Shown here: piece by piece, positions 32,215 to 34,979 of the stretch
Layout of the letters: the number at the start of each line of letters is the position of its first letter
Numbering within the stretch: the stretch's first letter is position 1
Origin: a virus
Virus record (IMG/VR): IMGVR_UViG_3300048838_000118
Location: 1-41,483 of that record
Length of the DNA: 41,483 nucleotides
Reading direction: 5' to 3' (one strand)
Notes under the pieces: generated by a model
Told to the model about the DNA's origin: nothing
The model's input: only the letters and a program-made list of their open reading frames with translations
Databases searched by the model: none
Made by a program: the position numbers and the translations under genes

Positions 32215-32622
32215 ATGAAGAAACCTGAAATAGTCAAGGATGATACATTCGGGATAGCTTATTACAACGCCTCCGAGATGGACGCCTACATCGCGGTCCT
32301 TGAGTCGGACAACGCCGAGATGCACGGATGTATTTCGGAACTGCAAGCCCTCTTCGACCTACAGCACACCCGCGTCAAGGCCGCAGAAGCCCTATGGCGC
32401 AAGGCCCACCCCGGCAAGGAACACGTGACGCCCGACCTTGGGGAGCTGGTTGGGTGGCTGATGGATGGGCGGGTCAAGGAGCTAGAGTCGTCGCTGGCGG
32501 AAATGGTGGAATATGCACGTGATTATCTCGGATGGGCGAGGGAAAAGCCTGACGAGATGGTTAAGGATGCTATCCAAAAGACACAAGTCTCCATCGACCG
32601 CGCACGGGCGTTGTTAGGGTAG
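32215..32622 (+). CDS. Hypothetical phage protein (135 aa) bordering the cassette array
   Basis: ATG 32215 follows AGGGG. The sequence is helical and acidic (MDAYIAVLESDNAEMHGCIS; ALWRKAHPGKEHVTPDLGEL), with no recognised domain. Its base composition matches the phage core. Its stop codon (32620-32622) touches the first attC-like stem, so this gene marks the upstream border of the integron cassettes. Confidence 0.65.
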   Translation: MKKPEIVKDDTFGIAYYNASEMDAYIAVLESDNAEMHGCISELQALFDLQHTRVKAAEALWRKAHPGKEHVTPDLGELVGWLMDGRVKELESSLAEMVEYARDYLGWAREKPDEMVKDAIQKTQVSIDRARALLG

Positions 32623-32653
32623 CTTATACCGATGGGTGTAAGCGTTGTTATGC
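32613..32653 (+). other. attC-like recombination site 0 (R'' lost)
   Basis: GCTTATACC (32622-32630) pairs with GGTGTAAGC (32635-32643). The core GTTATGC (32647-32653) follows at the spacing seen in the complete attC sites. The expected R'' box is degenerate (GTTAGGG in place of a YYYAAC box). It is the left border of cassette 1 and may be a mutated attC or a secondary target used by an integrase. Confidence 0.65.
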
Positions 32654-32948
32654 GGACGCCCTATCGGCGTAACCGCTTCGCTTATTACGCCGATAGGGCG
32701 CGGAGGTTATATGAGAGGGGAAGAGATTAAAGGAAATCATGCACACGACGCAGGAGCCTATGCACGGTGTTCTTACTGTGGTCGATATTCTGACAAACCG
32801 GGATCACTTCGCGGGTATGTAAAGTGTGACTGCGGGAAAATTGCTGGATGGTGCGGAAGCTTCAAAAAGCCAGATGAAAAATCTATCTGGAGCAACGCAT
32901 AACAACTGCTTCGACCTGACATCATAACGGATGCAGGTTAAGCAAATG
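32648..32948 (+). mobile_element. Integron gene cassette 1 (301 bp)
   Basis: The cassette starts at the TT of core G^TTATGCG and ends at the G of the next core. Its end box CGCATAAC (32896-32903) is the exact reverse complement of its own start, as expected for a circularised and re-inserted cassette. It holds a 16-bp perfect hairpin (32657-32672 with 32685-32700) around the loop CCGCTTCGCTTA, one gene and attC1. Confidence 0.9.
32711..32902 (+). CDS. Cassette 1 zinc-ribbon protein (63 aa)
   Basis: ATG 32711 follows GGAGG by four bases and lies 10 bases after the hairpin. The protein has YARCSYCGRYSDKPGSL and VKCDCGKIAGWCG, giving paired cysteines for a zinc ribbon, and ends KKPDEKSIWSNA. 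The stop codon lies inside the attC R'' box, a common economy in integron cassettes. No family was recognised. Expression from its own ribosome site is likely. Confidence 0.75.
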   Translation: MRGEEIKGNHAHDAGAYARCSYCGRYSDKPGSLRGYVKCDCGKIAGWCGSFKKPDEKSIWSNA

Positions 32949-32955
32949 TTAGATG
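32896..32955 (+). other. attC: attC1 recombination site
   Basis: R'' CGCATAAC is at 32896-32903 and R' GTTAGAT at 32948-32954. Between them the strand folds as GCTT/AAGC, ACCTG/CAGGT and ATC/GAT, with unpaired CG against T and AC against G and the loop ATAACG. Unequal unpaired bases on the two arms are the extrahelical markers that integron integrases use to choose the strand. Confidence 0.9.
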
Positions 32956-33314
32956 GATGCTCTGCCGCATTTCGGCAGTAGCCAAAATACGGACAGCGCA
33001 CCAAGCCGTCCGGGAGGATAGCGTGAAAGAAGAAAAGCAGAAAATCCGACGATTTCTCAAGGCAAACGGATGGACGAAAATTGACAAAAACTCCGAGTAC
33101 GAATCCTGGGGAAGAGACAATGCTGTCGGTGTAGATTTCAACGATAGTGAAATCACCTTTATTGGTGACTCGGGCGATTTTGCAAGCATCCGTTTGGACT
33201 TCTACGCTCTGGTCGGATTTTTCTACGTGAAAAGATTGTTGCTGCCGGTGATCCCGGACGGCATCTAACAACGACTTCAACTTGACTCGCTTGCGCTCGC
33301 AAGTTAAGTCAATG
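32949..33314 (+). mobile_element. Integron gene cassette 2 (366 bp)
   Basis: The start core GTTAGATG (32948-32955) and end box CATCTAAC (33262-33269) are exact reverse complements. Upstream of the gene are hairpins CTGCCG/CGGCAG (32962-32978) and GGAC/GTCC. It carries one gene with a GGAGG site and attC2. Confidence 0.9.
33023..33268 (+). CDS. Cassette 2 small alpha/beta protein (81 aa)
   Basis: GTG 33023 lies behind GGGAGG. An in-frame ATG 32957 would read through the hairpins and is not preferred. The protein VKEEKQKIRRFLKANGWTKI, then GRDNAVGVDFNDSEITFIGD and FYALVGFFYVKRLLL shows a helix-turn and beta-strand plan common among uncharacterised cassette proteins. No family was named. The stop lies in the attC box. 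Confidence 0.75.
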   Translation: MKEEKQKIRRFLKANGWTKIDKNSEYESWGRDNAVGVDFNDSEITFIGDSGDFASIRLDFYALVGFFYVKRLLLPVIPDGI

Positions 33315-33321
33315 TTGGGCG
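33262..33321 (+). other. attC: attC2 recombination site
   Basis: R'' CATCTAAC (33262-33269) and R' GTTGGGC (33314-33320) flank the stem GACTT and AACTTG paired with CAAGTT and AAGTC (11 bp). It is interrupted only by the single extrahelical C at 33278. R' belongs to the next cassette, so R'' and R' do not match each other, as expected. Confidence 0.92.
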
Positions 33322-33641
33322 GATTGCATACAGCATAACCGCTTCGCTTATTATGCAGATAGGCAACTAAATTGGAGGTCAAGAATGATTTTTAGACGGA
33401 TCAGATACTACATAAACAAGTTTATAGACTGGTGTTATTTCGGAAAAATTACATGTAAAGTAATATCGTGGGACGGGGGCTGCGAATCTGAAATAGAATT
33501 CCGTGGCCGAAATAATGAAGTTGTAGGGTATTGGGCTTATGGCTATTATGATCCGTATATGCCTTATCCACGTGGCCTCCAACGCCCAACAAGTAATTCA
33601 ACCTGACAATGCCCAGTAGGTCATTGCAGGTTAAGCAAATG
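33315..33641 (+). mobile_element. Integron gene cassette 3 (327 bp)
   Basis: The start core GTTGGGCG (33314-33321) and end box CGCCCAAC (33583-33590) are exact reverse complements. The leader hairpin GCATAA/TTATGC (33333-33338 with 33351-33356) has the 12-base loop CCGCTTCGCTTA, identical to cassette 1, on an unrelated stem. One gene and attC3 follow. Confidence 0.9.
33385..33606 (+). CDS. Cassette 3 protein with GYWAYGYYDPYMPY motif (73 aa)
   Basis: ATG 33385 follows GGAGG by six bases. The protein starts basic and aromatic (MIFRRIRYYINKFIDWCYFG), then has strand-type GGCESEIEFRGRNNEVVGYW and a tyrosine-rich YGYYDPYMPYPRG. The final codons run through the attC site. No known family was recognised. 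The sequence is coherent, so it is probably a real, folded protein. Confidence 0.75.
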   Translation: MIFRRIRYYINKFIDWCYFGKITCKVISWDGGCESEIEFRGRNNEVVGYWAYGYYDPYMPYPRGLQRPTSNST

Positions 33642-33648
33642 TTAGATG
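33583..33648 (+). other. attC: attC3 recombination site
   Basis: R'' CGCCCAAC (33583-33590) and R' GTTAGAT (33641-33647) flank stems AACCT/AGGTT (33600-33604 with 33628-33632) and CAATG/CATTG (33607-33611 with 33622-33626). The unpaired GA stands against C. Its 3' half is the same as in attC1 (GCAGGTTAAGCAAATGTTAG), so the two sites are related. Confidence 0.88.
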
Positions 33649-33927
33649 GATCGGCACACCGAATAAGCCTAACGGCTCACACGGATGGCCGACTAAATGC
33701 CATTGGAGGTAATTGTGAAGAAGTGGAGTAATAAAGATTTACTAGATCAGCTTATTATTCGCGCCAATCAGGTTGGTATTTTAAGCGAAAGTAACGAAGT
33801 CAGGGAGTTGTGCGAAGAAGTTTTGCTCCGTATGTCCAGTGGCATGGCTAACAACGAGTTCAAGGTGACAACGCGTATGGCTGGTACGCCTGATAAAGAT
33901 TGGTAGGCGTTGCGCCTTAACTCAATG
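33642..33927 (+). mobile_element. Integron gene cassette 4 (286 bp, damaged end)
   Basis: The cassette starts at core GTTAGATGG (33641) and ends at the G of another GTTAGATGG (33927). The leader has TCGGC/GCCGA enclosing AGCC/GGCT hairpins. The expected end box CATCTAAC is missing, so this cassette would no longer excise normally on its 3' side. Confidence 0.75.
33715..33906 (+). CDS. Cassette 4 helical protein (63 aa)
   Basis: GTG 33715 lies five bases after GGAGG. An in-frame ATG 33697 precedes that site and is not preferred. The protein VKKWSNKDLLDQLIIRANQV to NEVRELCEEVLLRMSSGMAN is a helical bundle pattern, ending VTTRMAGTPDKDW. No family was recognised. Short helical cassette proteins can be antitoxin-like, but there is no partner gene here. 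Confidence 0.7.
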   Translation: MKKWSNKDLLDQLIIRANQVGILSESNEVRELCEEVLLRMSSGMANNEFKVTTRMAGTPDKDW

Positions 33928-33934
33928 TTAGATG
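33908..33934 (+). other. attC4 half-site (5' half lost)
   Basis: CGCCTTAACTCAATGTTAGAT keeps the spacing of L' and R' seen in the other sites. The R'' and L'' arm is replaced by GGCG, which pairs locally with CGCC. The core GTTAGAT is intact at 33927-33933. It looks like an attC that lost its 5' half by deletion. Confidence 0.6.
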
Positions 33935-33943
33935 GACACTACA

Positions 33944-34109
33944 CGGCATAAGCAAAGCTTATGCCGACGGGTATCTATCTGGACAGGACCCACAGGATGG
34001 TTCAGTGGTAAAGAACAGGGCAGGCCTTCAAGTTCGATTCTTGTGTCGCTTGGTAGCCGTGAAGCTTGTCCGTCCGCTGGTTCGATTCCAGCGCTGTCTT
34101 GATAGATAC
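33944..34109 (+). ncRNA. tRNA-like structured RNA element downstream of the cassettes
   Basis: A 10-bp perfect hairpin (CGGCATAAGC with GCTTATGCCG, 33944-33966) precedes a larger fold. GTATCTATCTGGACAG (33971-33986) pairs with CTGTCTTGATAGATAC (34094-34109) at 15 of 16 positions. Inside it are a D-arm-like hairpin GTTC/GAAC (34000-34016), a T-arm-like hairpin CAAG-TTCGATT-CTTG (34029-34043) and a second one CGCTGG-TTCGATT-CCAGCG (34075-34093). The second directly abuts the closing helix, as a T-arm does in tRNA. No complete cloverleaf could be drawn. Confidence 0.6.
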
Positions 34110-34140
34110 CTGATGATTTTCAGACTAGAAGGAGTATGGG

Positions 34141-34353: not shown

Positions 34354-34581
34354 ATGGAAGAGATCAAGCTCGGTGAGACGCGGCACGCGCTACACGACAC
34401 CGACGCCGACCTGCTGGACGGGTTCGCCAAGGCGGCGCTGACGGGGATGCTTGCGTTTGGGGCAAGCAATATGCACAAAGACTCTGTACGTAGAGTTGTG
34501 GCAGAAGAGGCTTACTCTATGGCTGATGAAATGATGTCCGAGCGGGTAAGGCGAAGGAAAAACAATGGAGGCAACGAATGA
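34354..34581 (+). CDS. Hypothetical helical protein (75 aa)
   Basis: ATG 34354 directly follows the previous stop with AAGGAGG upstream. MEEIKLGETRHALHDTDADL, a weakly hydrophobic helix (AKAALTGMLAFGASNM) and a basic end RVRRRKNNGG are seen. No family was recognised. ATGA couples it to the SSB gene. Confidence 0.6.
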   Translation: MEEIKLGETRHALHDTDADLLDGFAKAALTGMLAFGASNMHKDSVRRVVAEEAYSMADEMMSERVRRRKNNGGNE

Positions 34582-34979
34582 ACGATCTAAACAGTGTGGT
34601 TTTAGGCGGGCGGCTTACCCGTGATTCAGAGACAAAATACACCGCCGGAGGGCTTGCCGTGTGCAACTTCTCCATCGCCAACAACCAGTCGAAAAAGTCC
34701 GGAGACGGATGGGAGATGGTGGCGTACTTCTACGACGTCGCGGTGTTCGGCAAGATGGCTGAGACGCTTGGTCAGTACCTTGTCAAGGGCAAGCAGATAA
34801 CCCTTGTCGGCGAGCTTTCAACCGACCGCTGGGAGAAGGACGGCGTGAAGCATGAGAAGGTTAAAATAAGGGCTACAAGCATCCAATTGGGCCATGGCGG
34901 GGATACCCACTCCAGCAAACCATCGGATTCAGAAACAACCACCGTGGCAGACGGATTCGCCGATGATATCCCATTTTAG
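34578..34979 (+). CDS. ssb: Single-stranded DNA-binding protein
   Basis: This 133-residue SSB has the OB-fold opening MNDLNSVVLGGRLTRDSETK and AVCNFSIANNQ, then YFYDVAVFGKMAETLGQYLVKG and the strand RWEKDGVKHEKVKIRATSIQ. The acidic C-terminal tip FADDIPF docks partner proteins. It protects ssDNA during replication and recombination. The start overlaps the previous stop. Confidence 0.95.
   Translation: MNDLNSVVLGGRLTRDSETKYTAGGLAVCNFSIANNQSKKSGDGWEMVAYFYDVAVFGKMAETLGQYLVKGKQITLVGELSTDRWEKDGVKHEKVKIRATSIQLGHGGDTHSSKPSDSETTTVADGFADDIPF

Follow-up and report, generated by a model that had tools for sequence, protein, structure and literature searches.

The window analysed here, a whole IMG/VR virus record of 41,483 bases, contains a genuine cassette array of integron origin within a tailed phage. 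We believe that positions 32624–33934 are probably an integrase-less integron cassette array that was built in the phage by integron-type site-specific recombination, with the integrase acting in trans. At the level of sequence, the array consists of attC sites with matching boxes, a conserved site at its head, a conserved leader in its cassettes and cassettes shared with other phages, and no integrase was found in the window. A first-pass annotation had placed four small-gene units separated by attC-type sites at this position; the head site, the hairpin element that opens each cassette and an apparently degenerate fifth unit are additional to that description.

Four attC sites and their cassettes

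The proposed array is borne out by four attC sites within 1.04 kb, scoring 52.7–67.4 bits in covariance model R1, which was built on 26 sites, mostly from other viral contigs, and whose training set includes attC1 and attC2 of the window and excludes attC3 and attC4 (Table 1). As an outside control, R1 gave 67.2 bits to the attC that follows aac(6')-Iae in the class 1 integron of plasmid pMAK3 (NC_009982). A three-box attC pattern had three matches in the window vs none in 100 shuffles. The sites have the R''/L''/L'/R' architecture, their stems covary, and the unpaired bases lie on one arm as in canonical attC, in keeping with the inequality between arms reported previously. Viral locus L056 shares 88% identity with attC3 and the adjoining leader start over a stretch of 81 bases.

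Each of the four units carries one small ORF with its own GGAGG-type site, as had been described. The earlier observation that the first eight bases of cassettes 1, 2 and 3 are reverse complements of the cassette's own end box also holds, at all eight positions in each case. When viral arrays are taken together, the cassette's own box pair matches at all four variable bases in 58 of 74 cassettes vs 7% of cross pairs, the hallmark of insertion from a circular cassette.

Table 1. Features of the cassette array, in window coordinates
Feature	Position	Strand	Details
Putative attI-like head site	32624-32654	+	inverted repeat, 5-nt spacer, R' box GTTATGCG
Head-site inverted repeat	32624-32641	+	TTATACC-GATG-GGTGTAA
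Cassette 1	32647-32903	+	R' GTTATGCG, R'' CGCATAAC; exact reverse complements, 8/8
Leader of cassette 1	32655-32706	+	30.5 bits
ORF of cassette 1	32711-32902	+	63 aa
attC1	about 32896-32955	+	66.2 bits, model R1
Cassette 2	32948-33269	+	R' GTTAGATG, R'' CATCTAAC; box pair 8/8
Leader of cassette 2	32956-33005	+	41 bits
ORF of cassette 2	33023-33268	+	81 aa, GTG start
attC2	about 33262-33321	+	67.4 bits, model R1
Cassette 3	33314-33590	+	R' GTTGGGCG, R'' CGCCCAAC; box pair 8/8
Leader of cassette 3	33322-33371	+	40.4 bits
ORF of cassette 3	33385-33606	+	73 aa, runs into attC3
attC3	about 33583-33648	+	58.5 bits, model R1, outside training set
Cassette 4	33641-33852	+	R' GTTAGATG, R'' TGGCTAAC; mismatched, 5/8
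Leader of cassette 4	33649-33697	+	20.9 bits
ORF of cassette 4	33715-33906	+	63 aa, GTG start
attC4	about 33845-33934	+	52.7 bits, model R1, outside training set; long terminal loop
Leader-like element of fifth, apparently degenerate unit	33935-33980	+	13.2 bits, E=0.15, leader model R2; hairpin part only

The array resembles a bacterial CALIN in the IntegronFinder sense, with at least two attC sites close together and in the same orientation, one gene per cassette and no intI nearby. It differs from a bacterial CALIN in lying in a phage, in having a recurrent attI-like head and in the two-helix leader of each cassette.

The array type recurs in other phages

Two attC pattern scans of IMG/VR together with model searches, counting near-identical contigs once, found attC sites of this family, accompanied by the same type of leader, in about 29 further viral records, and the family attC alignment shows strong covariation. 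One member (L068) is the finished genome of Tetrasphaera phage TJE1, an isolated virulent phage with the same attC and leader types. Because the window is a virus record, probably metagenomic, a chimeric contig or the misassembly of bacterial attC DNA into a phage contig has to be weighed; with the same array type in all these records and in the finished TJE1 genome, and with co-directional phage genes surrounding the window array and ssb 0.6 kb downstream, we regard this as very unlikely.

Few relatives of the window's proteins are encoded in array-bearing contigs, the single-strand binding protein being the one most often shared; for the most part, then, the phages in which the array recurs are not related to that of the window. 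The only segment that aligns between L039 and L056 is 383 bp long, 97% identical and essentially one cassette; we take this near-identical cassette as a probable sign of mobility between phages. In L029 and L055, which are homologous upstream, a head site lies at the matching place and is followed by different cassettes.

In most phages where ssb was detected it lies within about 1.1 kb of the array (L029, L030, L032, L033, L056 and L058); its coordinates are 34578–34979 in the window and 1846–2196 in TJE1. Two separate head sites with cassettes occur in some phages (L028/L029, L037/L039 and L059/L091, each pair being one record). Other phage genes served poorly as bait for relatives: an Erf-like gene found none, and the helicase found seven contigs, none of which had an attC hit in the family scan.

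Arrays of this general kind have been described before. Qi et al. (2023; PMC9892861) reported attC clusters without an integrase in phages, TJE1 included, and found that IntI1 could recombine five of six attC sites from phages, those of TJE1 among them. The array alone is thus not new, and the first-pass impression that the arrangement was not known to be common has to be revised in the light of that report. The TJE1 CALIN (HQ225832) is like the window array in its attC family, its leaders, the ssb close downstream, the lack of any tyrosine recombinase found in the record and a GTTAGACC..GGTCCAAC hairpin directly before the first cassette. The phage itself is different, and in the TJE1 stretches that were compared, ssb alone encodes a protein detectably similar to one of the window.

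A conserved site precedes the first cassette

Across the family, cassette arrays are immediately preceded by a head site with the consensus TTA(T/G)(A/G)C-(C/T)GAAC-(A/G)-G(T/C)(A/C)TAA, followed after about five bases by the R' box. A leave-one-out weight matrix placed the head site at the best position of its record in 23 of 26 cases and ranked that of the window first among 82,966 positions; it failed to do so for L065, for TJE1, whose spacing is off by one, and for an L030 unit that lies internally and is no head. Model R3, trained without the window, has a single match in it (32615–32654, E=3.4e-4), and over 745 kb of viral loci it finds array heads only, most of them from its training set. 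When all viral contigs were searched with a specific head-site pattern, the four that matched carried cassette arrays without exception, and one match revealed a cassette that the attC scans had missed, with leader, ORF and truncated attC.

In its conservation, its place ahead of the first cassette, its R box at the crossover and the inverted half-box upstream, the element resembles attI sites. Unlike these, the head site of the window is not beside intI and R3 sees no likeness to attI1; its attI role is putative. Could the element instead be a transcription terminator, or another hairpin that stands before the first cassette by chance? Qi et al. (PMC9892861) read the TJE1 hairpin as a terminator, this copy is annotated as a putative terminator, and a terminator scan matched the window at 32622–32643. 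Furthermore, TJE1 and L065 fail the leave-one-out test, which we count against the head-site reading, and the base-pairing signal is weaker in head sites than in attC. On the other hand, the scan gave five sites in all vs 3.5 expected from shuffling, the stems of most copies are A+T-rich and lack a T run, and the distance between hairpin and GTT crossover does not vary within the aligned set. We therefore consider a terminator or chance hairpin unlikely; position, spacing and recurrence appear to fit an attI-like site better.

The head site also bears on whether the array is a passive hitchhiker or fossil, that is, a piece of a bacterial array captured by illegitimate or homologous recombination and immobile in the phage. 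Off-target homologous or illegitimate recombination is the entry route suggested by Qi et al. (PMC9892861), the boxes of cassette 4 are mismatched, and some terminal cassettes of other arrays have a truncated attC. Random capture, however, would not account for a common head site ahead of the first cassette in most of the family's arrays; boxes match as a rule, and a near-identical cassette occurs in otherwise dissimilar contigs. Passive capture is accordingly a distinctly improbable account of the array as a whole. Parts of it may nevertheless be fossil, as the cassette 4 mismatch and the truncated sites indicate. At some array ends attC is cut off after its left half (L037, about 1350–1320 on the minus strand; L091, 11020–11042), and end cassettes lacking the right half should be immobile.

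Integrase, host and proposed mechanism

No Phage_integrase (PF00589) match was found in the whole 41.5-kb window, which may itself be a fragment of a genome; this agrees with the earlier failure to recognize a tyrosine recombinase, and the intI gene of a complete integron is missing from the window. Tyrosine recombinases were likewise absent from all 15 viral records searched first (three of them with helicase relatives and no array) and from 21 of 25 further related viral records. Those of four array-bearing records gave 18–57 bits or nothing as integron integrases, against the NCBIfam cut-off of 265 bits that served as our threshold.

A 25-base attC segment had its sole exact match in the bacterial and archaeal genome collection in L008 (DUQJ01000097.1), a short integron-cassette contig of a 'Clostridiales' MAG. 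Bacillota were considered as host phylum and set aside: among 101 genomes only this MAG and one weak hit were found, and since the other Bacillota sampled lack such attC sites the contig may be misbinned. None of the integrases encoded in the MAG comes near the integron-integrase cut-off. Tetrasphaera jenkinsii is the only host named for any member of the family; the Treponema link raised in the first pass is conjectural.

We propose that cassettes would enter as circles, the folded attC strand being joined to the attI-like site, where cleavage is expected after the G at 32647, and that earlier cassettes would be pushed downstream by newer ones. The integron integrase would act in trans, with the host or a co-resident element as its likeliest source. 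Since neither this integrase nor the host was found, trans mobilization is something that we infer; of the first-pass proposal, the part on an integrase-less array in a tailed phage finds support, and a host integrase, itself presumed, offers the best account of how the cassettes move. The array may well be active at present. No promoter was recognized in the cassettes; transcription probably enters them from the co-directional phage operon in which they lie.

Cassettes open with a two-helix leader

After the R' box, nearly every cassette has GAY, a helix P1, a short joint, a hairpin P2, A(C/T)A, the closing arm of P1 and a ribosome site. Because the MAFFT leader alignment leaves P1 out of register, this helix was tested with cross-combined arms: the P1 arms are complementary within their own leader in 72% of cases vs 23% for cross-combined arms. 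The leader directly follows an attC in 65 of 95 cases in the family, and most of the others belong to first cassettes. Neither the leaders nor the attC sites matched any Rfam family.

In a comparison that took in few bacterial cassettes, the two-helix form occurred on viral contigs only, and the bacterial cassettes examined have just a short hairpin at the leader position. The idea that the leader is exclusive to phages was weakened by L008 and the class 1 cassette, which also open with a short GAC hairpin. The pMAK3 integron, whose first cassette opens in this way, differs from the window array in having intI1 and attI1, with no head-model match at attI1 and no leader-model match.

The main text of Qi et al. 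(PMC9892861) names no leader, and we found no description of one in open-licence papers. As far as we have found in that literature, a recurrent attI-like head together with a two-helix leader common to many phages is undescribed. A riboswitch role claimed for the 5' regions of integron aminoglycoside cassettes is disputed (PMC9410878), and a function for the leader should therefore not be assumed; it would probably act in the mRNA, for example by preventing the upstream attC hairpin from obstructing the ribosome site.

Cargo and implications

To the four cassette proteins of the window Pfam and PHROGs assign nothing beyond a weak match of the cassette 3 protein to PHROG 2993, a family without an assigned function; the cassette 1 protein has no Pfam family above cut-off and none in PHROGs. 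Cassettes of other arrays encode DNA methyltransferases, a Lar-like protein and many small phage-type proteins, and the pool therefore looks like phage accessory genes. This qualifies the first-pass idea of phages moving integron cargo: elsewhere in the family the cassettes resemble small phage accessory genes and not typical integron cargo.

A broader proposal, to which we give about even weight, is that unrelated tailed phages share a dedicated system of cassette exchange, consisting of an integrase-free attI-like platform, a pool of accessory genes with a common leader, and an integrase of the host. If true, the integron would here have taken on a phage-adapted form that has no integrase of its own and serves the trading of genes between phages, which would maintain landing sites and exchange small accessory genes via the host integrase, as opposed to carrying cassettes by accident. 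It would also offer a site-specific explanation for some phage mosaicism, and it would link the phage and bacterial cassette pools, given that a clinical class 1 attC scores as high as the phage sites.

Minor features of the window

The fifth unit, after 33934, has no recognizable attC. Within it, positions 33968–34110 are strongly structured (folding z-score −3.0), with tRNA-like arms and a sub-threshold tRNA match of 17 bits. An abiF RNA match (1388–1424) lies directly 5' of a tRNA-Thr(CGT) gene (1431–1503), both close to the beginning of the record.
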